From positions 1 to 64,000 of IMG/VR virus record IMGVR_UViG_3300017598_000441: a DNA stretch of 64,000 bases; one strand, 5' to 3'. The notes beneath the pieces are model-generated. The model did not search any database and was not told the origin of the DNA. It saw only the letters and a list, made by a program, of their open reading frames with translations. Shown in pieces: positions 40,282-64,000 of this stretch. Positions within the stretch are counted from its first letter, which is position 1. Each line of letters starts with the position of its first letter. The stretch is from a virus. The position numbers and the translations under genes were made by a program.

Positions 40282-43200
40282 ATGAAATATTCGAGTTGTT
40301 CAAAATGCAAAATAAGTTCGTCCTGTAAACATACTGCATTACAGGAGGATTCTGTACAGAAAGATTTTCTGATAATATCAGACAGACCTAGCCAGTTCGA
40401 TGATAATGCAGGTACAGTCATGCGAGAGGGTAAAGATAAACTTATCCAGAACTTATTTGCTATGGCGGGAGATGTAGATGTAGAAAGTATAGCATATTCC
40501 TATGCTGTAAAATGTTACACCCCAGAGGTAGATATTAAAAAAGAGGCTGCAAAATGCTTACCCTACCTAATAGAGGAGGTACAGACTATAATGCCTAAAT
40601 GTATAATGGTTTGTGGAGAAGTTTCTTTTAAGGCTATTTGTGAGGGGGATTATACAAAACAGATAGGTACAAGTGTTTTCTCCAGAAAGTTCGGAAGACA
40701 GTTCGAGAAAGTGCCTATAATCGTAAACTACGATACGGAGTTTGCCTCTGAGCATTCCACAAAAAATACAGACTTCTCTAGAAATGTAAGCCAGAAGTTT
40801 GTAGATATACTTAGTAAGGCTCACAATATTTCAGAATCTAAGGAGGGCTCAGATTCAGCAGTAGCGAAAGAGAGGCTAACTAAGATAGTGGATGTACTAG
40901 ATATAGATACAGCTAAAAAGTTAGTGGAATACTGTAAAATAAAAAAGGTAGCAAGTTTCGATTTTGAAACACCTACTTTAGATTACAAATCTGGAGAAAA
41001 ACCTACTTCGTTAGCCATATCTTTCCAAGCGGGTAGTGCATATTTTATACCTATGTGGCACTGGTCAAGGGTCTTTCCAGAAGAAGATAAAGAGATTTTA
41101 AACGGATTCCTAGAATGTGATGAATTGACAAAACAGGAGTTCCTACATATTGCAGAATTAGTTTTTAGGAAATCTGGAGTAAATAAAAATGCAGATGATT
41201 TAATTGAGTATATCAATACTGTAATAATACCCCAGTTCTTGCCTAAAATGGAAACTGTAGAATTGACTTACGATATAAAGGAAATAATAGCTGACCTTGT
41301 AGATAAGGAAGAGTGGACAGAAGATTTCATTTATGAAGTTATATCTATAATAAACGATGGAATTTTTGGGGATAGAGATATTGTAAAAGTGGCACATAAT
41401 TTCTCTTTTGATAAGCACTGGGGTATGGAGAACGGCATTGTCAAGTTTCGAGGGAGATGCAATGATACTATGTTGATGCACCACTTAGTTAGAAATGATG
41501 CCAAGCATGGATTGAAATTCATTGCTCCCACATACTACCCCGAGTTTGCAAACTGGGAGGAAAGTTTAGGCTCGTATCCTTGGGATGCAATACCCTTTAA
41601 AGTTCAAGGATTGTATAATGGTATAGATACTGACTTAACCTTGCGTATAGAACCTATTTTAGAAGATGAACTTCTAAAAGATGAACAAGTGTATAGGTTC
41701 TACAGAAATCTTACAATACCTACTATGCACGCTTTGACGGATATGTCATATAGAGGTATGAGCATAGACAGGGATTTGATTGAAAAATCTATTAAGGAAA
41801 CGGATGCAATAATAGCAGATGTACAGGCAAGTTTACTCCAGTATCCAGAGGTAATAAAATTTGAAGAGCATAGTAGGGAGGTTGCAAAAAAAGAAAAACT
41901 AAAAACCCTAAAAGAAAAAATCAAGGTTGCCAAAGAACGTACGAAGGTAAGTGTAGGCAAAAAGATAGAGAAGCTACAGGAAAAAATAGCTAAATCAGAA
42001 GGTGCTATAGAGGATTTGAAAAAAAACTTATTAGATGTAGAGGAGTATGTACTGTTCTTAGAACGTAAGAAGGATGAGGAAGATGGAGATAATGCCAAAG
42101 AATTAACTCGAGAAATCAAAGAGGAGAAGAAAAAAGTAGCCTCCCTAACAAGAAAACACACTACTGAGGTACGAAAAATAACGAACACAAAAACCTCTAT
42201 AGCAGAGTTAGAGACTGGAGATAATGATAACCACCACGTAAAAAATTGGAAAAAACAAATGTCTGAAATAAAGACAGGTGTGGTGGATGTATATGAAGGA
42301 GTTTCTTTATCCTCTCCAAAACAACTAGGAGACCTACTGTATGAACCTCACGGATTTGGCTATCCTATGCAATATGACTGGAAAAAGAGAGCAAAAACCA
42401 AGTCCACAAACAAAGCTATTCTAGGTCAGTTCGAGGATGATACAGGATTTATAGCAGAACTATTAAAGCTAAAGTCTATTCAGCACACTAAATCCACTTA
42501 CTTAGAGGGTATAAGGAGCCGACTGGATAGTAATAATATGCTACATACATCTTACAATCAGTTGATAGATACAGGTAGAATATCCTCCAGAAACCCAAAC
42601 TTGCAAAACATACCCCCAGAGGGGAGAGTAAAAGATGCCGAAGCATCTAGGGTGGTTGGGTTTATAAAAAAATCTTTCAATGTACCCGAAGATTGTAGTA
42701 TTCTAGAAGCGGATTACAGTCAAGCTGAACTAAAAGTAGCTGCGGAAGTGGCGGGAGAAACCAATATGATTGAGGCTTATAGAGATGGGCAAGATTTGCA
42801 CGTAAAAACAGGATGCTCTATAGCCGAAATTGAAGTGCCAGAGTATTACGAACTCCCTAAAGCAGAGCAAAAACCTATAAGGCAAAATGCGAAAGCAGCA
42901 AACTTCGGATTGATTTTCGGACAGGGTGCTAAAGGGTATCAACAGTATGCGAAACAAAACTATGGAGTGGAGATAGATATACATGAAGCAACTAGGCAAA
43001 GGGATGTATATTTTGAGACCTACCCTAAGATTTTGAAGTATCATACAACGGCAGTAAAGGAGGCAGAGAAGTATGGTTTTATGAGAACTATGCTAGGCTA
43101 CAGGAGATTTTTGCCAGATATTCATTCTGTAGATGACTTTCTAAAAGGGGAGGCAGGAAGACAAGCTATAAATACCAAAATACAAGGTACAGCAGGACAA

Positions 43201-43455
43201 CTTACCTTATTCTCTATATGTTTACTTAAAATACGATTACACCCCTCCGTGCAGATGATTAACACGATTCACGATAGTATATTTTTCATAATACCAAACC
43301 ATCTGTTAGAGGATACGAAGAGAATTATTCGCAAAACTATGGAGAACCTACCTATAAGAGAGTATTTTGGTGTAGGCATAGATTCAGTTAAGATGAAAAT
43401 TGACTTTAAGATAGGTACGAAAAGTTGGGGTGAGATGGAAGAAATTGAAGAATAA
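40282..43455 (+). CDS. polA: DNA polymerase A family with N-terminal UDG-like domain
   Basis: 1057 residues. Residues 1-190 resemble a uracil-DNA-glycosylase-like domain (CSKC...CKH start, LIISDRPSQFDDNAGTVMREGKDKLIQNLFAMAG), as in the SPO1 polymerase. A 3'-5' exonuclease follows with Exo I FDFETP (about 225), Exo II AHNFSFDK (about 371) and Exo III NGIDTDLT (about 446). Polymerase motifs: A EADYSQAEL (about 809), B RQNAKAANFGLIFGQG (about 867) and C TIHDSI (about 994), keeping the catalytic Asp but with Ser instead of the usual Glu. A ~110-residue coiled-coil insert (about 532-640) sits at the thumb base before SPKQLGDLLYE. This is the replicative polymerase of the phage. Confidence 0.9.
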   Translation: MKYSSCSKCKISSSCKHTALQEDSVQKDFLIISDRPSQFDDNAGTVMREGKDKLIQNLFAMAGDVDVESIAYSYAVKCYTPEVDIKKEAAKCLPYLIEEVQTIMPKCIMVCGEVSFKAICEGDYTKQIGTSVFSRKFGRQFEKVPIIVNYDTEFASEHSTKNTDFSRNVSQKFVDILSKAHNISESKEGSDSAVAKERLTKIVDVLDIDTAKKLVEYCKIKKVASFDFETPTLDYKSGEKPTSLAISFQAGSAYFIPMWHWSRVFPEEDKEILNGFLECDELTKQEFLHIAELVFRKSGVNKNADDLIEYINTVIIPQFLPKMETVELTYDIKEIIADLVDKEEWTEDFIYEVISIINDGIFGDRDIVKVAHNFSFDKHWGMENGIVKFRGRCNDTMLMHHLVRNDAKHGLKFIAPTYYPEFANWEESLGSYPWDAIPFKVQGLYNGIDTDLTLRIEPILEDELLKDEQVYRFYRNLTIPTMHALTDMSYRGMSIDRDLIEKSIKETDAIIADVQASLLQYPEVIKFEEHSREVAKKEKLKTLKEKIKVAKERTKVSVGKKIEKLQEKIAKSEGAIEDLKKNLLDVEEYVLFLERKKDEEDGDNAKELTREIKEEKKKVASLTRKHTTEVRKITNTKTSIAELETGDNDNHHVKNWKKQMSEIKTGVVDVYEGVSLSSPKQLGDLLYEPHGFGYPMQYDWKKRAKTKSTNKAILGQFEDDTGFIAELLKLKSIQHTKSTYLEGIRSRLDSNNMLHTSYNQLIDTGRISSRNPNLQNIPPEGRVKDAEASRVVGFIKKSFNVPEDCSILEADYSQAELKVAAEVAGETNMIEAYRDGQDLHVKTGCSIAEIEVPEYYELPKAEQKPIRQNAKAANFGLIFGQGAKGYQQYAKQNYGVEIDIHEATRQRDVYFETYPKILKYHTTAVKEAEKYGFMRTMLGYRRFLPDIHSVDDFLKGEAGRQAINTKIQGTAGQLTLFSICLLKIRLHPSVQMINTIHDSIFFIIPNHLLEDTKRIIRKTMENLPIREYFGVGIDSVKMKIDFKIGTKSWGEMEEIEE

Positions 43456-54210: not shown

Positions 54211-54414
54211 ATGATATTAAAACCCACCGCCTTTATTCAAGGGCATAGCTTTGATTTAAAAACCCGATTAGAAAACTATAAGAAATATAGGAAACCTAAA
54301 AGAGTGAAACCCTTGGACAGCTACACAGCTTTTATATGTTGCTATGGGGATTTGAGAGAAAATTATTTCAACCAAGAAAATTTAAAAAACACACACGATG
54401 GAATGGAGAATTAA
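54211..54414 (+). CDS. Hypothetical basic small protein
   Basis: 67 residues, basic N-terminal part. The C-terminus LKNTHDGMEN is encoded by the ACACACACGATGG leader of the ligase gene, which it overlaps by 17 bases; the same happens at sbcD/sbcC. Translation is supported by its place 3 bases after the previous stop. Confidence 0.5.
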   Translation: MILKPTAFIQGHSFDLKTRLENYKKYRKPKRVKPLDSYTAFICCYGDLRENYFNQENLKNTHDGMEN

Positions 54415-56419
54415 AACCTTATCGAAGGAGTTGGACAAAATGAACCACGATTACTATGTGGTAGGAAATGGGCTATATTCAGATTACGAATATGACATGA
54501 AGTTAAAAGAATTGCAAAATCTGGAGGTGTTATACCCAGAATTTGCACTACCCACCTCACCTACGCAGAGAGTAGGTTCCGACAGAATATCTGGCTTTAC
54601 TTCTGTAAAGCATGAAACAAAAATGCTAAGTTTAGACAACTCTTATAACATAGAGGAAGTTGAAAAATGCCTAAAAAGAATAGCAGCCTCAACCGAGGCA
54701 GAGATAGGGTATGTAACCGAAATAAAAATAGATGGAGCATCTATAGAATTAGTTTACGAAGATGGAGTATTGACACAGGCAACTACCAGAGGAGATGGAG
54801 AGTTTGGAGACGATGTTACTGAAAACGTGAAAACTATCCGTTCAGTACCTTTAAAACTCAAAGGGGAGTATAAGCCTAGAATGACTTTCCGAGGTGAAAT
54901 TGTAATGCCTAAAAAGGTGCTTCTTGAAATAAACGCAAAAAGAACAGAGACAGGAGAAAAACTGTTTGCCAATGCGAGAAATGCAGCATCTGGAAGTCTA
55001 AAATCTCTGGAGCCAAAGGAGGTGGCAAAAAGAAAATTAGATTGTATCATATTTGAATCAATTTATGAATCTGAAAAAACAGTAGAGAACAGCCACCACT
55101 GGAGAATGTTGGAGGTTGAAAGCCTAGGATTTAAAACGATATTTACTGGGTTAGATATTCCTATGATGTTTACAAAAACCAATCACAAAAACATTGCAGG
55201 TATAAAAGCATTTATAGATGTCTGGGAGACCAGAAAAGATACTTTGCCGTACTTGGTGGATGGAATAGTAATAAAAGTAGATAGTATATCTTTAAGAGAG
55301 GTACTAGGTGCAGGAAGTAAATACCCTAACTGGGCATTTGCCTACAAGTATAAAGCAGAAGAAAAATCTACCTTACTCAAAGAAATTATCTATCAAGTAG
55401 GTACGTTTGGTTCAATAACTCCAGTAGGTAAGTTAGAAACAATAGTACTTTCAGATACTAACGTTTCTAATGTTATGATGAACAACCCAGACTGGATTGC
55501 TGATATGGATATTAGAGAGGGGGATTCTGTAATAGTAGAGAAGGGAGGCGAGATAATCCCTAAGATACTTAGGGTAGATTTGTCCAAAAGACTAGAAGGT
55601 GCAAAACCTATCAAGTTCATAACTCATTGCCCTTGTTGTGGAAGTGAACTCAGCAGAAAAACTACCATGAAAGGAGAGGATACAGCAAATATCTTCTGCC
55701 TCAACTCAGAAGGTTGTGCCGACCAAGTTATCGCCAAAATCAAACACCTAACCAGTAAAAAGGCTATGGATATTCAAGGACTGGGGGCAGCCACAGTTCG
55801 AGAATTATTTGAGAAAGGGTTAGTGAAAAGTCCTGTGGATGTTTACAGATTAACTTTGGAGGATTTGGAAGGAAATAAAATCAAAAACTCAAAGAATATT
55901 TACAACTCCATACAGAACTCCAAGAACTCAAAGTTCTACAGAGTAATATACTCTTTAGGCATACCGACTGTAGGCACAACTACATCAAAATTTTTAGCTG
56001 AAAGACTTGAAAATCTGGAACAACTAAAAGATGCAAGTTACCTAGACTTGAAAGAATTAGGTTTATCGGAGGGGGTTCGAGAAGAGATACATTCATACAG
56101 AGGAGAATACCTAAATGGTATTATGGAATATTTCTGTGAAAATGGATTCAATACCAATAAGGAGGAAGCTTCTGAAAAAACATCTAGTAAACTGGTGGGT
56201 AAAAACGTCATAATTTCTGGAAATTTTGGAGATGCCTCTAGAAGAAAATACTTGGAGTCTCTTATAATTGAGCACGGAGGTAAAAAACAGTCCTCAGTAA
56301 GCAAAAAGACTTCATTTGTGGTTGAGGGTGAAAAAATGGGTTGGAGTAAGAAGGAAAAAGCTATAAAACTAGGAATACCCCTAATAACGGAGGAAGATTA
56401 CTTAAAAATGTTAGACTAA
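54398..56419 (+). CDS. ligA: NAD-dependent DNA ligase
   Basis: 673 residues, the full bacterial length. Adenylation motif EIKIDGAS (Lys about 110), the NTase domain with ATTRGDGEFGDDVTENVKTI, an OB fold (DGIVIKVDSISLREVLGAGSKYPNWAFAYKYK, GTFGSITPVGKLE), zinc finger CPCCGSEL...CLNSEGC, HhH region and a C-terminal BRCT domain (about 595-673). It seals nicks with NAD+ as cofactor. Most phages carry short ATP-dependent ligases, so a full-length LigA with BRCT is notable. Preceded by AAAAACACACACGATGG. Confidence 0.95.
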   Translation: MEWRIKTLSKELDKMNHDYYVVGNGLYSDYEYDMKLKELQNLEVLYPEFALPTSPTQRVGSDRISGFTSVKHETKMLSLDNSYNIEEVEKCLKRIAASTEAEIGYVTEIKIDGASIELVYEDGVLTQATTRGDGEFGDDVTENVKTIRSVPLKLKGEYKPRMTFRGEIVMPKKVLLEINAKRTETGEKLFANARNAASGSLKSLEPKEVAKRKLDCIIFESIYESEKTVENSHHWRMLEVESLGFKTIFTGLDIPMMFTKTNHKNIAGIKAFIDVWETRKDTLPYLVDGIVIKVDSISLREVLGAGSKYPNWAFAYKYKAEEKSTLLKEIIYQVGTFGSITPVGKLETIVLSDTNVSNVMMNNPDWIADMDIREGDSVIVEKGGEIIPKILRVDLSKRLEGAKPIKFITHCPCCGSELSRKTTMKGEDTANIFCLNSEGCADQVIAKIKHLTSKKAMDIQGLGAATVRELFEKGLVKSPVDVYRLTLEDLEGNKIKNSKNIYNSIQNSKNSKFYRVIYSLGIPTVGTTTSKFLAERLENLEQLKDASYLDLKELGLSEGVREEIHSYRGEYLNGIMEYFCENGFNTNKEEASEKTSSKLVGKNVIISGNFGDASRRKYLESLIIEHGGKKQSSVSKKTSFVVEGEKMGWSKKEKAIKLGIPLITEEDYLKMLD

Positions 56420-58507: not shown

Positions 58508-58536
58508 AAACCCTAATCAAATGATTAGGGTTTTTT
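58508..58536 (+). terminator. Rho-independent terminator
   Basis: AAACCCTAATC (58508-58518) pairs with GATTAGGGTTT (58523-58533), loop AAAT, then TTT. Lies between the secreted protein and the DAHP synthase-chorismate mutase gene. Confidence 0.9.
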
Positions 58537-58558: not shown

Positions 58559-59563
58559 ATGAAAATTATAGCAGGACCCTGTAGTGCAGAATCAGAATCA
58601 CAGATAAAAGAAATAGCAGACTCACTAAACGCTTTTGGAGTAAAGACTTTTAGGGCAGGGGTATGGAAACCTAGGACTAGACCTAATAATTTTGAAGGTT
58701 TCGGGGAGAAGGCAATACCTTGGTTAGCGTACCCTAGAAATTTAGGTATGGAGGTTACTGTAGAGGTAGCAAATAAACATCAAGTATCTATAGTCTTAGA
58801 AAATTTGCATATAATAAACTCAGTATGGATAGGAGCTAGAACGACAGCTAACCCATTTGCAGTTCAAGAAATAGCAGAAGCACTGGAGGGAAGTAATATT
58901 CCTGTAATGGTGAAGAACCCTCTAAACCCAGATATACAGTCTTGGGTAGGGGCTATAGAAAGATTACAAAGTAGAGGCATCAAAAATATATCCGCAGTAC
59001 ATAGAGGATTTACAGATGATTTGGAGACCAGATACAGAAATAGTCCTAGATGGGATTTCATCTGTAAATTTAGAGAGGCATTGCCAGATATTCCTATAGT
59101 ATGCGACCCTAGCCATATAGCAGGAAGTAGGTTATACATAGATGAAGTGTGTAGAACAGCAGCTCAGCTAGGGGTGGATACTTTTATGATAGAATCTCAC
59201 AGCAACCCCGAAAATGCTATGACGGATGCGGCCCAACAAGTAACCCCAGAACAACTACATTTAATTGTATCTAATCTGAAACTGGAGACAGAAGAGCATC
59301 TTATAAGCCTAAGCAATAGTAGGAATCAAATAGATGCTATTGATAGGAGCATAGTAAGACTTCTTGAAGAAAGATTCAAACAGGTTGCAAATATCAAAGG
59401 GGTCAAAAAGGCAAAAGACATGGAGGTACGCCAACCCCAGAGGTGGGAGGATGTACTCCGAAATATCAAAGAAGAATCTATACATTGTACTAATATATCT
59501 GAATCTGAGGTAGTAGAAATCTTTAACACGCTGCATAATATATCTATAGCAAACCAGATATAA
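58559..59563 (+). CDS. aroF: Bifunctional DAHP synthase (type I-beta) / chorismate mutase
   Basis: 334 residues. N-terminal DAHP synthase: GPCSAES (Cys8), KPRT (38-41), IGARTTANP (91-99), VKNPLNPD (Lys119), HRGF (148-151), CDPSHIAG (182-189), IESH (211-214) and Asp223, all catalytic or metal-binding positions of the family. From about 250 an AroQ chorismate mutase domain follows (SRNQIDAIDRSIVRLLEERFKQVANIKGVKKAK...). It would condense PEP and erythrose-4-phosphate to DAHP and convert chorismate to prephenate. The fused form is usual in Bacteroidetes. The phage version begins almost at the GPCSAE strand, so the family's short N-terminal segment is missing. It lies after a terminator and before two promoters; no promoter of its own was identified in the 22-base gap between terminator and start. 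Confidence 0.9.
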   Translation: MKIIAGPCSAESESQIKEIADSLNAFGVKTFRAGVWKPRTRPNNFEGFGEKAIPWLAYPRNLGMEVTVEVANKHQVSIVLENLHIINSVWIGARTTANPFAVQEIAEALEGSNIPVMVKNPLNPDIQSWVGAIERLQSRGIKNISAVHRGFTDDLETRYRNSPRWDFICKFREALPDIPIVCDPSHIAGSRLYIDEVCRTAAQLGVDTFMIESHSNPENAMTDAAQQVTPEQLHLIVSNLKLETEEHLISLSNSRNQIDAIDRSIVRLLEERFKQVANIKGVKKAKDMEVRQPQRWEDVLRNIKEESIHCTNISESEVVEIFNTLHNISIANQI

Positions 59564-59565
59564 AT

Positions 59566-59596
59566 TTTGGTATATTAAAAATTTTCCGTATCTTTA
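59566..59596 (+). promoter_or_regulatory. First of two tandem promoters
   Basis: TTTG at 59566-59569, 19-base spacer, TATCTTTA at 59589-59596. The -7 box is the centre of TCCGTATCTTTACGGA, an inverted repeat. Confidence 0.75.
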
Positions 59597-59651
59597 CGGA
59601 GTAAAAGGGACAAAAATAAACCAAAATTAATTAATCTTTTATGAAATTAAT

Positions 59652-59683
59652 TTTGGTTTATAACAAAACTTTTCGTACCTTTA
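59652..59683 (+). promoter_or_regulatory. Second of two tandem promoters
   Basis: TTTG at 59652-59655, 20-base spacer, TACCTTTA at 59676-59683; -33 palindrome TTTTGGTTTATAACAAAA. The -7 box sits in TTCGTACCTTTACGAA, again an inverted repeat. Both promoters are followed by GTAAAAGGGA. Confidence 0.8.
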
Positions 59684-59729
59684 CGAAGTAAAAGGGAAAA
59701 CAAATAGTACAAACCACAAATTTAGAATC

Positions 59730-59927
59730 ATGTTAGAATTACTAGACAAAAAGTACGAGGGAGCAATTACATCAGAACCGACTACTCTTAGGGTAGATGG
59801 CAAAGCTACAAAACTGAAATTATTCATAGATACTTTGGAGAGTAGTGGAGTATCTGAAAAAACAGCAATAAACAGGTTCAGTAAATTCGTTAGAGACAAC
59901 GATATGATTGAACTAATTAATAATTAA
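59730..59927 (+). CDS. Small hypothetical protein before the modification-type genes
   Basis: 65 residues, read from the tandem promoters. SEKTAINRFSKFVRDNDM is helical and basic and could be a small DNA-binding or regulatory protein, perhaps controlling the operon. Not recognised. Confidence 0.55.
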   Translation: MLELLDKKYEGAITSEPTTLRVDGKATKLKLFIDTLESSGVSEKTAINRFSKFVRDNDMIELINN

Positions 59928-59928
59928 C

Positions 59929-59962
59929 ACACACAAACAACACACACAAACAAAACACACAC
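59929..59962 (+). promoter_or_regulatory. Three ACACACA leader copies before HAD gene
   Basis: The 36-base gap holds ACACACACA three times (separated by AACA), the last as AAAACACACACAATG at the start codon. It is a multiplied form of the leader seen before many replication genes. Confidence 0.6.
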
Positions 59963-59963
59963 A

Positions 59964-60401
59964 ATGAGAAAAAAAATTGTATTACTAGACTTGAACAGCA
60001 CGCTTGCAGTAAAATCTAGCTATGACTGGAGAACATTTACTTACGATGTATCCGCAGATGAGTACTCAAAGGAGTTAATAGAAAAACTCAAATCGGAGGG
60101 GCACGAAGTATGGATTCTAACTGCCAGAACTACAGAGTATGAAAAAGATACTTTGGAGAAATTGATGAAAGACACAGGTTATGCTCCAGATAAATGCTTC
60201 TTTAAAGGACATGGAGGGAAACAAGAAAGAAAACTTCCTGCACACATTTACAAAAGATTATTTGTAGAGGAGCTTCTGAAATCTGGGGAGTATAAAACAT
60301 CTGATTTCATTGCTGTAGAAAGTAATTTTAAAACGCATAAACAATACAGAGAACTGGGACTCACGGAGATTTATAAGAGAGACCAGTATCTGAAACTGTA
60401 A
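59964..60401 (+). CDS. HAD-superfamily protein, divergent
   Basis: 145 residues. VLLDLNSTLA (Asp9, Asn11, Thr13) is the HAD motif I, but the general acid/base Asp is replaced by Asn; WILTAR is motif II; FIAVESN replaces the usual acidic motif IV. The fold resembles small 5'-nucleotidase/polynucleotide phosphatase HADs of phages. The lost acidic residues suggest altered or weak hydrolysis. It sits 2 bases before the CmoA-like gene, so it may act on an intermediate of that pathway. Confidence 0.7.
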   Translation: MRKKIVLLDLNSTLAVKSSYDWRTFTYDVSADEYSKELIEKLKSEGHEVWILTARTTEYEKDTLEKLMKDTGYAPDKCFFKGHGGKQERKLPAHIYKRLFVEELLKSGEYKTSDFIAVESNFKTHKQYRELGLTEIYKRDQYLKL

Positions 60402-60403
60402 AA

Positions 60404-61084
60404 ATGGAAAAAGATACCCACACAGAAGAAGGTTTTTCCTTCAATTCAATAGTAGAGTTTGATAGTCATATATCAAACTCTATTCCTAGTTATGATAGTT
60501 TGTTAAACTTTGTAGTTCAACTATCCGACTACTTCATGGAGGAGGGAGTCAATAATTTTGATATAGGTTGTAGCACAGGTAAATTAGTCAAGAGGCTAGG
60601 AGAAAGACATCCAAGCTCTAAATTTACTGGCATAGATAATGAGGTGAATTTCAAAGATGAGATGGATTCAGCCTCAACCAATACCAATTTTATATTCAAA
60701 GATATATTCAAAGTGGATAATTTCAAGAACTCCAACTTTAATACTTTAATATTCACCTTGCAGTTTTTACCTCCCCACAAAAGATTAGAATTAGTGAAAA
60801 AACTCTACGATGGGTTAAACTTAGGGGGAGCCTTAGTAGTTGCAGAAAAGACACTATCAAAAAGCTCCAAGTTCCAAGAGATTCTAACCTTTTTATATTA
60901 CGACTATAAGAGGGCGTATTTTTCAGATAAGTCTATTTTAGAGAAAGAGAAATCTCTTAGAGTCATAATGAAGCCTATGACATTCCAAGATTTAGAAAAC
61001 TTAATGATAGCAGCAGGCTTTTCAGAAGTAGAGATTTTCTGGAAAAGTTATAATTTCATAGGTATAATTGCAATAAAGAATTAA
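60404..61084 (+). CDS. CmoA-family SAM-dependent enzyme (carboxy-SAM synthase-like)
   Basis: 226 residues, close to CmoA's 247. Collinear with CmoA: SNSIPSYDSLL (CmoA RSVPGYSN), FDIGCSTGKL (motif I, 52-61), TGIDNE (75-80), IFTLQFLPPHKRLELVKKLYDGLNLGGALVVAEK (116-149), FLYYDYKRAYFSD (163-175), then AAGFSEVEIFWKSYNFIGIIAIK (203-225). E. coli CmoA makes carboxy-S-adenosyl-methionine from SAM and prephenate for tRNA wobble uridine. A gap-free alignment by eye puts Glu (about 182, LEKEKSLR) where CmoA has Arg199, with Lys on both sides, so the reaction is not proven. The same region encodes a prephenate-making enzyme. Confidence 0.75.
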   Translation: MEKDTHTEEGFSFNSIVEFDSHISNSIPSYDSLLNFVVQLSDYFMEEGVNNFDIGCSTGKLVKRLGERHPSSKFTGIDNEVNFKDEMDSASTNTNFIFKDIFKVDNFKNSNFNTLIFTLQFLPPHKRLELVKKLYDGLNLGGALVVAEKTLSKSSKFQEILTFLYYDYKRAYFSDKSILEKEKSLRVIMKPMTFQDLENLMIAAGFSEVEIFWKSYNFIGIIAIKN

Positions 61085-61104
61085 TAATCCATAAAAGAAG
61101 AAAG

Positions 61105-61671
61105 ATGGCAGTAGTAAAAAAAATGGTAAAGATATTCAAGAAGGACATTCAAGAATATTCAAAGAATGAGAAGATTCACACTAACGAGAATCTTGCATTA
61201 ATCCGAAAAAGTATCTCAGACATAGGGTATGTAACCCCTATTGTAATAGATGAAAATAATGTAATCCTAGCAGGGCACGGAAGATTCGCAGTTATGTTAG
61301 AGAGTAAGACTCTCAAAATAGAGTGTATGCAAATAACAGGTCTTACAGAACTACAAAAAAAGAAATTTAGACTATACGACAACCAGACAGCTAGGACGGG
61401 TCACTTCGATAATGATTTATTACTAGACACCGTGGGAGGTATCCTAGCAGAAGATTCGGAGTTTAATATCGGAATACTAGGTATTGAAGGTTTAGCGGAA
61501 GCCTTTTCTGATGAGATTATAAGCCTAGATTTAGGTACTGCCAAATTTGAAAAAGTAGAAAATGAAAGTCCTTTGAAAGTACTGGTAGTAGTTACTGACC
61601 GAGTAGAGGAAATAAAAGAACTACTAAGAAAGGAGAAAGGTACAGAGTTTTCACAAGGAATAAAAGCATAA
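61105..61671 (+). CDS. ParB/sulfiredoxin-like domain protein
   Basis: 188 residues. FKKDIQEYSKNEKIHTNENLALIRKSISDIGYVTPIVIDENNVILAGHGRFAVMLESKTLKIECMQITGLTELQKKKFRLYDNQTA is the ParB N-terminal domain as found beside phage DNA modification enzymes, with the GHGR motif (57-60). In such proteins the domain is thought to bind nucleotide and work on DNA rather than segregate plasmids. The second half is unfamiliar. First gene after the CmoA-like gene in the same direction, gap about 20 bases. Confidence 0.8.
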   Translation: MAVVKKMVKIFKKDIQEYSKNEKIHTNENLALIRKSISDIGYVTPIVIDENNVILAGHGRFAVMLESKTLKIECMQITGLTELQKKKFRLYDNQTARTGHFDNDLLLDTVGGILAEDSEFNIGILGIEGLAEAFSDEIISLDLGTAKFEKVENESPLKVLVVVTDRVEEIKELLRKEKGTEFSQGIKA

Positions 61672-61675
61672 TACC

Positions 61676-62167
61676 ATGAGCAGAGAAAAGGAAATTACAC
61701 TTAAACAGCTCAAATCTAAACTAGCTCTGGTAAAAATACAGCCAGATAAACTACTGGAATTAGATACAGAGTTCATAGAGTTGGAGCAGGAATTATCTTC
61801 AAATTCTAAAAAACCTTACTTATCAAGCCTAAGTGCTATAAATACTGTGGTAAGAAAATACAAAAAACTTGTAGATTTAATAGTGGCAGATAAACTCAAA
61901 GGAATCAGTTTAAGAAACATAAAATTGATAATGAGTACAGAGGGACTACGAAACCTAGTAGTAGTCTTTAAACCCCAAGATTTCAACCTAAAGTTTTTCG
62001 GAGGGGACTACCGAGCAAAACTTACTCCAGAGTACTTCTTTAGACTGTTGGAGGATAAAGTATCTGGAAAAGTATTTATTTTTAAACATTCAGAAACTTC
62101 GGTAGCTAAAACACAGACTGCAAACATTACAAAAACACAATACTATGTACTCTTTAGTAAAGATTAA
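61676..62167 (+). CDS. Hypothetical protein between two ParB-type genes
   Basis: 163 residues. Helical N-terminal half, then LRNLVVVFKPQDFNLKFFGGDYRAKLTPEYFFRLLEDKVSGKVFIFKHSETS. I do not recognise it. It starts 4 bases after one ParB gene and overlaps the next by 23 bases, so it probably works with them. Confidence 0.65.
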   Translation: MSREKEITLKQLKSKLALVKIQPDKLLELDTEFIELEQELSSNSKKPYLSSLSAINTVVRKYKKLVDLIVADKLKGISLRNIKLIMSTEGLRNLVVVFKPQDFNLKFFGGDYRAKLTPEYFFRLLEDKVSGKVFIFKHSETSVAKTQTANITKTQYYVLFSKD

Positions 62168-63629
62168 ATTAAAAAGCTTAATAGGGGATGAGGACAACCC
62201 TAGACTTCTAGCAGACAAGACCAAAGAACTTCTAATATTATCACTAAAGAAGTTCGGATTATTGTCTCCTATTTATTTGGACCAAAGAGGAGTTTTACTA
62301 TCTGGACACCAGAGAACCAAAGTTATGAAAGAACTGGGAGTAGAATCCGTCTATTGTAATGTTCTTAAAATGGACTTAGAAGATAAGAGTAAATTTAACA
62401 GCCTCAACTTTGCATTCAATAAAGAGCTACAGGAGATTAATGGTTTTGAGAACTCATCCGAAGAACATATAAAAAGTAAGAGGGCAGAGTTATTAGAAAT
62501 GCTTACAGGCATGGAAGACTTAGAAGACATAACACAACCCCTAAGAGAAACCTCTGTAGTACCAGTTTCAGATATTACACCAACAGAAACAGACATACCC
62601 GAAAGGTTAGTATCCAACTCTAGAATGTTATTTGCTATGGCAGGAGTAGTAATCCCCTTAATATGTGATGAGAATTACAATATAGTAAACGGAAACGCTA
62701 GATACATATTCTACAAAAAGAAGTTTGCTAAGATACCCTGCATAGTAGCAAAAGGAATCACTCCAGATATATTTAAGTACATAACTGCTAACTATTCTCT
62801 AAAAGGTAGAGAGGATAATATCCGAGTAGAGGCTAGAAGACATTTCATAAGACCTCACCTATCAAAACACCATGAAGAGATAGCTATGGGTAAAGCATCT
62901 GGAAACTTTCCACTAGCATTTAGATTAAACTATCAAAACAAGCATTATAAGCATACTTTAGACTTTGGTTCTGGTAATGGTAAACAAACAGCATTTCAAA
63001 GGGCATTAGGGCAGAATATAACGATGTTTGAGCCATTTTCTACTAAGAAGCTAGGTGAGTTCTCTTTATTGGAGACATATACCAATTTAAGCACGTTTCT
63101 GGATGAATTAGAAGCAAACGATATATTTGATATGGTAAGGGCGAATGCAGTATTGAATAGCGTACCTTTCGAGGAAGATTTAAAGAAAGTGGTAACACTC
63201 CTAAAGTTTCTGGCTTGCGGAAGTATTAAACTCGCAGTTACAGGAAGAAACGTAAGAAAGTTAGTTAAGTGGGAAGGTAGAGGTACAGGCACTAAGATTA
63301 AGGATATGGGAAAATCCGTTATTATCAGTATTTCACAAAAAACCAAGGTTCAGAAATTCCACACCATAGAAGAGATGGTAGAAATGTTCTCAGATGAAGG
63401 AACAGGAACGGAGGCATTAATAGTAGATGGAAGGTCTGGAGATATAGCAGTAGAGATTAGATACCCTAAATACACAATAGGTAAAAAGGAATTACTAGAG
63501 GCTGTGGCGTTTGAGTTCGGTATGAGTTACGAGAATAGGGTGTTTAAAGACATCAAGAAAAGGGCATTGCAGGTATTCGAGGAGAGATATGACAGACTAC
63601 TGTTAGCAGGCGTAGTACAAACCAACTAG
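62145..63629 (+). CDS. Double-ParB protein with SAM-binding Rossmann domain
   Basis: 494 residues. ParB-like domain 1 (1-80): DNPRLL...LSLKKFGLLSPIYLDQRGVLLSGHQRTKVM with SGHQR. ParB-like domain 2 (about 155-230): RLVSNSRMLFAMAGVVIPLICDENYNIVNGNARYIFYKKKF with NGNAR. From about 270 a Rossmann SAM-methyltransferase-type fold: KHTLDFGSGNGKQTAFQRALGQNITMFEPFSTKK (motifs I and acidic II), then FDMVRANAVLNSVPFEEDLKKVVTLLKFLACGSIKLAVTG. No DPPY/NPPY-type catalytic motif is evident. Most likely a nucleic-acid base-modifying transferase guided by the ParB domains. Terminase follows. Confidence 0.75.
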   Translation: MYSLVKIKLKSLIGDEDNPRLLADKTKELLILSLKKFGLLSPIYLDQRGVLLSGHQRTKVMKELGVESVYCNVLKMDLEDKSKFNSLNFAFNKELQEINGFENSSEEHIKSKRAELLEMLTGMEDLEDITQPLRETSVVPVSDITPTETDIPERLVSNSRMLFAMAGVVIPLICDENYNIVNGNARYIFYKKKFAKIPCIVAKGITPDIFKYITANYSLKGREDNIRVEARRHFIRPHLSKHHEEIAMGKASGNFPLAFRLNYQNKHYKHTLDFGSGNGKQTAFQRALGQNITMFEPFSTKKLGEFSLLETYTNLSTFLDELEANDIFDMVRANAVLNSVPFEEDLKKVVTLLKFLACGSIKLAVTGRNVRKLVKWEGRGTGTKIKDMGKSVIISISQKTKVQKFHTIEEMVEMFSDEGTGTEALIVDGRSGDIAVEIRYPKYTIGKKELLEAVAFEFGMSYENRVFKDIKKRALQVFEERYDRLLLAGVVQTN

Positions 63630-63669: not shown

Positions 63670-64000
63670 ATGAAAAAGACAGACAAATCTGATTTGACAA
63701 TCTGGACTAAAGCAGGTACAAAACGGAAAAGAAAAAGGAGACCAAATTCAAAACCAAACTCAGAAGCTACCAAAAAAGCCAAGCAACGTAAAGCCGCTAA
63801 GACTGCCAAGGAAGCAAGTATAAAAACCAAAGCTGCTAAAGCTGCAATGTTAAAGGCTTTGACTGCGAACTTAGGTATTGTTACTAATGCGTGCCAACAG
63901 GCAAACCTATCAAGAACGCAACATTACCAGTGGCTCAAAGATGACAAAGCTTACAGTCAAGCCGTGGAGGATATAGGAGAACAAGCTATTGACTTTGTGG
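63670..64000 (+). CDS. Probable small terminase subunit, 3' end cut by the window
   Basis: 110 codons visible from the ATG at 63670. The first ~55 residues are very basic and Ala/Lys-rich (TKRKRKRRPNSKPNSEATKKAKQRKAAKTAKEASIKTKAAK). Then LKALTANLGIVTNACQQANLSRTQHYQWLKDDKAYSQAVEDIGEQAIDFV fits the helix-turn-helix of phage small terminases ('fl..l...G.v..A...agisr..vy.W...D..F......'). It would recognise the packaging site. The large terminase is expected just beyond the window. Confidence 0.7.
   Translation, partial: MKKTDKSDLTIWTKAGTKRKRKRRPNSKPNSEATKKAKQRKAAKTAKEASIKTKAAKAAMLKALTANLGIVTNACQQANLSRTQHYQWLKDDKAYSQAVEDIGEQAIDFV

Follow-up and report, generated by a model that had tools for sequence, protein, structure and literature searches.

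How would a phage that is predicted to make carboxy-S-adenosylmethionine (Cx-SAM) put this compound to use? The question is raised by the window analysed here, a stretch of 64,000 nucleotides that takes up positions 1-64000 of a virus record with 73,679 bases (IMGVR_UViG_3300017598_000441), and in particular by the gene set at 58559-63629, located on the + strand directly ahead of the terminase genes. The original prediction had read in it a route in which the phage secures prephenate, a CmoA-family enzyme makes Cx-SAM, and a protein with two ParB units and a Rossmann domain, here called ParBRos, uses the latter to modify nucleic acid. All the open reading frames (ORFs) that it named are found on that one strand, as the ORF list and the domain searches agree, and their codon usage is like that of the phage's other genes. 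The set is probably a phage cassette for Cx-SAM-dependent DNA modification that is independent of CmoX, parallel to but distinct from the CmoA-CmoX system.

As a class, phage DNA modification through Cx-SAM is no longer new, since a paper of December 2025 described it for a different transferase (PMC12783734). In Synechococcus phage S-B43, as described by Yang et al., CmoA makes Cx-SAM, CmoX, a homologue of C5-methylases, moves the carboxymethyl group to cytosine giving 5-carboxymethylcytosine, and CmoY then adds glycine; ParB-domain proteins are often found near CmoX systems and DNA methylases (PMC12783734). The same authors found no N4/N6 carboxymethyltransferases and left prephenate availability as a question (PMC12783734). 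The CmoX-free version built on ParBRos is undescribed in the literature searched.

Concerning the predicted Cx-SAM synthase, CmoA (60404..61084, + strand), matches were obtained to TIGR00740 (2.5e-37, with the next non-CmoA NCBIfam family at 1.8e-08), to phrog_4752 (7.6e-55) and to the YecO/CmoA structures of the PDB (1e-26 to 1e-28), the score of 128.9 bits lying under the TIGR00740 curated cut-off of 193.3 bits. CmoA is likewise the top NCBIfam family for 10 of the 10 cassette CmoA-like proteins checked. The window protein is 40% identical over the length of CmoA to that of S-B43, a proven Cx-SAM synthase (PMC12783734), and in the region of E. coli Lys198-Arg199, where Arg199 contacts the carboxylate (PMC3663124), it reads KEKSLR and S-B43 CmoA reads KEKELR, neither with an Arg at 199. 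Given this identity and the common KEKxLR helix segment, window CmoA very likely makes Cx-SAM from SAM and prephenate. Scans of viral contigs with window CmoA alone found no close relatives, and an alignment of diverse CmoA proteins was too variable to serve as scan query.

Two further phages deserve mention here. In Alcaligenes phage Afa-NA1 (L010/L248) a CmoA occurs for which no CmoX and no ParBRos turned up within 8 kb; DNA adenine methylases are annotated nearby, and this phage possibly has a third kind of Cx-SAM user. In Erwinia phage Y3 (L246) CmoA adjoins an asparagine synthase, near a 2-oxoglutarate-Fe(II) oxygenase and with a DNA methylase about 5 kb off.

The main evidence for a functional pair comes from the neighbourhood of ParBRos (62145..63629, + strand) in other viruses. 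The window protein was aligned with its homologues from Gordonia phage Evaa, Aeromonas phage HJ05 and Pseudomonas phage SM1, and a search of IMG/VR with this alignment gave 193 relatives, 80 of which were used for the locus counts, with CmoA, ParB1 (the second ParB-domain protein of the set) and HAD scored by profiles from window and isolate proteins. CmoA and ParB1 were each found in 79/80 loci and HAD in 70/80, with a median CmoA-ParBRos gap of 466 bp. Nine gene orders occur, HAD being moved or on the opposite strand in some, with several terminase types, and in the window the genes are themselves permuted (HAD-CmoA-ParB1-orphan-ParBRos), a pattern that speaks for joint selection and against frozen synteny. 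ParBRos diverges in step with CmoA (r=0.58) and with HAD (r=0.82), with a permutation p=0.0002 for each. Among isolates, CmoA adjoins ParBRos in all 14 phage records with a full-length ParBRos, which represent three lineages (Gordonia Evaa, Aeromonas HJ05 and the Pseudomonas SM1 group), against about 80 of 50,697 phage records with a CmoA detectable by the query used, and the phage-like plasmid p7 of Rhizobium bangladeshense (L245) shows ParB1-ParBRos-CmoA beside terminase-like genes. As far as gene content tells, the ParBRos-CmoA link is not due to chance and CmoA looks like a partner of ParBRos in many unrelated phages.

The check for the same gene set in related phages, suggested by the original prediction, was thus run, and relatives keep CmoA, ParBRos and ParB almost always, CmoX and CmoY being absent there. 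The proposed passage of Cx-SAM from CmoA to the ParB-Rossmann protein is strongly supported by this persistence in spite of order and strand changes. No conserved ligase or further partner was found around ParBRos in the relatives beyond packaging genes. An asparagine-synthase-like protein is present in HJ05 and on plasmid p7, a hint that amide hypermodification occurs in some members; p7 further holds a SAM decarboxylase.

ParBRos itself matches phrog_5475 (1.1e-40 across residues 7-481) and consists of two ParB-type units, the second degenerate, followed by a class I methyltransferase fold. Over 29 members Pfam detects ParB_N in 27 and Methyltransf_23 in 20, and the PDB matches found by Foldseek with the AlphaFold2 model (mean predicted local distance difference test, pLDDT, of 77.5) are ParB domains and class I SAM methyltransferases. 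Residues invariant in these members include NPR and SGHQR (first ParB unit), NG..R (second ParB unit), the cofactor-binding motifs DFGxG and FEP, NS(V)PF past the fourth strand and KxQK (K401, Q403, K404) just ahead of the last helix-strand unit. The latter might recognise the Cx-SAM carboxyl group, as it lies in the same general sequence region that holds Arg199 in CmoA (PMC3663124). In the alignment no Cys is conserved and a DPPY motif is absent; hence, a CmoX-like or classical N4/N6 mechanism is not expected, and the transfer chemistry of ParBRos, if any, would be new.

In the sequence searches of the whole record ParBRos emerges as the only candidate Cx-SAM user, because CmoX, CmoB, an N4/N6-methylase and a CmoY-type ligase are all without match there. 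Neither the 73.7-kb record nor isolates SM1, Evaa and HJ05 gave a match to C5-methylases (PF00145), and no CmoX was found in the 80 ParBRos loci; C5-methyltransferases occur in five of these (L017-L019, L050-L051), rejected as CmoX on their ordinary motifs GYPCQPFS and GNAVVP/GNGVVP. CmoY-type ligases (PF00733) had no match in the record, and the CmoY profile finds none in the 80 loci. CmoB (Methyltransf_9) was found in 0/23 records tested, including that of the window and those of SM1, Evaa and HJ05, and the Methyltransf_25 model has CmoA as its sole match over the record. Methylases of N4/N6 or Dam type (PF01555, PF02086) gave no match in the record, no DPPY-type motif is seen in the ORFs listed, and PF01555 had no match in the three isolates either. 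A scheme based on thymidylate synthase (5-hydroxymethyluracil, 5hmU) was rejected, PF00303 being absent from the record. Seen from the other side, 80 CmoX loci contain CmoA in 63 cases, CmoY in 69 and ParBRos in none, although these loci are close relatives of S-B43, which limits a one-to-one statistical test of CmoX/ParBRos exclusion.

The remaining members of the set are less easily read. The HAD-fold protein (59964..60401, + strand; phrog_32036) has an AlphaFold2 model with a pLDDT of 89.7 whose Foldseek matches are capless HAD phosphatases, and its profile has no sequence match in the PDB. Over 20 members motif I, normally DxDxT, is conserved as DLN-x-T, and motif IV, normally of the Asp type, as ESN, which removes the usual acid/base Asp; such a variant could be another type of catalyst, or it could regulate. 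ParB1 (61105..61671, + strand), a ParB/Srx-domain protein matching phrog_620 (9.7e-31), resembles in sequence the ParB units tied to DNA methylases in PHROGs (phrog_498). The 163-residue orphan ORF between ParB1 and ParBRos (61676..62167, + strand) has no Pfam, NCBIfam or PHROG match, and no counterpart was found in the related ParBRos loci.

At the upstream end lies DAHPS-CM (58559..59563, + strand), a fusion of DAHP synthase and chorismate mutase assigned by Pfam/NCBIfam, PDB and cellular homologues, with an N-terminal DAHP_synth_1 (5.7e-31) and a C-terminal CM_2 domain (4.2e-17). The closest cellular homologues are 45-46% identical and mostly from Bacteroidota. Of 63 residues invariant among 63 cellular homologues 59 are kept, over both domains, catalytic residues included, and compared with the Bacteroidota homologues the N-terminus is about 20 residues short; judged by these residues, the enzyme looks active. 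Scans of viral contigs with this protein alone found no close relatives.

Put together, these data suggest the following scheme. CmoA would turn SAM and prephenate into Cx-SAM, as expected from its homology to a proven enzyme. The ParB units of ParBRos would bind DNA or a nucleotide, and its methyltransferase-fold domain would move the carboxymethyl group from Cx-SAM onto a base of the phage DNA, a role assigned to it because of co-occurrence, fold and the lack of any other candidate. ParB1 and the variant HAD would assist, the former perhaps in DNA targeting and the latter in processing or regulation. In the window phage only, the Bacteroidota-type DAHPS-CM would open the shikimate pathway and drain chorismate to prephenate, which by pathway logic would keep Cx-SAM synthesis from running short. 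The likely purpose is protection against host restriction or another DNA-targeting defence. That the product lies on DNA, and that it is a carboxymethyl group, we infer, as did the original prediction, which had left the choice between DNA and RNA; DNA is favoured because the terminase adjoins and because ParB domains sit with DNA methylases and CmoX (PMC12783734).

Several points weigh against this scheme. The 73.7-kb record may lack part of the genome, so a CmoX outside it is conceivable. One of the 80 loci (L034, a short contig) has HAD, ParB and ParBRos without CmoA. Arg199 of E. coli is not kept in window CmoA, though the proven S-B43 enzyme is also without it, and the CmoA-like protein of SM1 moreover has no conserved Glu164. 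ParBRos conserves neither Cys nor DPPY, so these motifs point to no particular acceptor atom, and it might use plain SAM. Along these lines ParBRos could be an ordinary SAM-dependent methyltransferase, like the proteins that its fold matches, with Cx-SAM serving another enzyme or used only incidentally; Cx-SAM binding by ParBRos is, after all, presumed. We regard this as unlikely, since a dedicated Cx-SAM synthase stands beside ParBRos in nearly all loci and no other conserved candidate user is seen. Modification of host or phage RNA, in the manner of cmo5U, is more improbable: cellular CmoA works in tRNA, and one weak Foldseek match of ParBRos is a tRNA cmo5U34 methyltransferase, but CmoB was not found, the window holds no tRNA genes, the ParB units and the terminase neighbourhood speak for DNA, and the known phage CmoA pathway acts on DNA (PMC12783734). 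The least weight is given to a CmoA that mainly depletes SAM against SAM-dependent defences, as raised by Yang et al. (PMC12783734), with ParBRos and HAD as unrelated packaging neighbours, for which the adjoining terminase could be quoted; such neighbours would hardly hold together over nine orders and several terminase types or diverge in a correlated way.

A separate question, which concerns the supply step alone and leaves the other steps of the scheme untouched, is whether DAHPS-CM belongs to the cassette. It may be an independent auxiliary metabolic gene, for aromatic amino acids or a host bottleneck, placed there by chance, which we consider a serious possibility though not the favoured one. 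DAHPS-CM is found in 0/80 ParBRos loci and so stands outside the conserved set, a search of 18 ParBRos records turned up no chorismate mutase, and the gene has boundaries of its own. Before it stands a terminator-like element (58508..58533, no strand assigned), detected by sequence scan as a perfect 11-bp stem followed by a T-run, and after it, separating it from the rest of the set, two tandem near-identical promoter-like elements of Bacteroidota type (59566-59596 and 59652-59683, + strand) of the form TTTG-N19/20-TANNTTTA then CGNAGTAAAAG, whose conserved tail TANNTTTACGNAGTAAAAG is found twice against 0.01 expected; the right end of the record has a third stretch resembling these copies. 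The claim that the genes are packed together therefore stands for 59730-63629, starting with a small ORF of 65 residues (59730..59927, + strand) with no assigned function and a coding score like its neighbours, and not clearly for DAHPS-CM. Nevertheless, this gene lies directly upstream of genes that include CmoA, whose co-substrate is its product, and its catalytic residues are retained. On position and pathway logic we therefore lean towards a DAHPS-CM tied to CmoA through prephenate, although the idea of a phage securing its own prephenate is one of the weaker parts of the original prediction and finds no echo in the relatives. Within the data examined, the DAHPS-CM add-on is unique to the window phage.

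Next downstream come the genes for the terminase small subunit (63670..64000, running to 64206 of the record, + strand; phrog_4044) and the large subunit, TerL (64206-65864 of the record). TerL relatives of the phage (L161-L164) show no cassette in the stretches examined, so that lineage does not carry it invariably. The host probably belongs to the Bacteroidota, as the Bacteroidota promoter pattern is over-represented in the window (15 against 3.6 expected, about four times chance) and DAHPS-CM resembles Bacteroidota enzymes. An Rfam search of the last 19.7 kb of the record gave no match. Among the other genes, 40282-43455 encodes a family A DNA polymerase with an N-terminal domain of the uracil-DNA-glycosylase superfamily, likewise annotated in the cassette carrier SM1, and 54398-56419 an NAD-dependent DNA ligase with a BRCT domain. 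An acyl carrier-like protein at 69433-69903 of the record has DDL in place of the DSL attachment site, and in TerL relatives L161 and L163 a regular acyl carrier protein adjoins tandem ParB genes.

If true, the scheme gives phages a second way to disguise their DNA chemically. In its boldest form it would be a second widespread pathway, with a ParB-fused transferase that uses Cx-SAM independently of Cys on a base N or O and not on cytosine C5, yielding an undescribed DNA base, in the first phage known with its own prephenate supply; for this whole combination we hold the chances to be a little short of even. ParBRos is a distinct candidate transferase family with at least 80 related loci, bearing on the remark of Yang et al. 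that no N4/N6 carboxymethyltransferases were found, and DAHPS-CM offers a concrete case for their prephenate-supply question (PMC12783734). Since carriers include cultured Pseudomonas, Aeromonas and Gordonia phages, virion DNA is open to direct checking.

Compared with known systems, ParBRos belongs to the same family as phrog_5475 and the 'ParB-N-terminal-like domain methyltransferase' of Gordonia phage Evaa (gp2); PHROGs enters this family without function, and no description of a link between it and CmoA and HAD was seen in the literature searched. With the cellular CmoA-CmoB pathway of the tRNA wobble position the cassette has a CmoA homologue in common, whereas CmoB is absent from the window phage and the relatives tested and the phage set adjoins the terminase. 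The Bacteroidota DAH7PS-CM of Porphyromonas and Prevotella (PMC12202928) has the same domain order and invariant residues that the phage enzyme keeps, the latter differing in being phage-encoded, about 20 residues shorter N-terminally and beside a CmoA cassette. With the CmoA-CmoX-CmoY system of S-B43 the window cassette shares a phage CmoA, the proposed use of Cx-SAM on DNA, the frequent presence of ParB proteins nearby and occurrence in many phages. S-B43 has CmoX, a C5-methyltransferase with SPPC and Arg350, as well as CmoY, and the window cassette is without both, having instead a candidate transferase of ParB-ParB-methyltransferase fold with no conserved Cys, a variant HAD in the set and, in the window phage only, DAHPS-CM as an extra.

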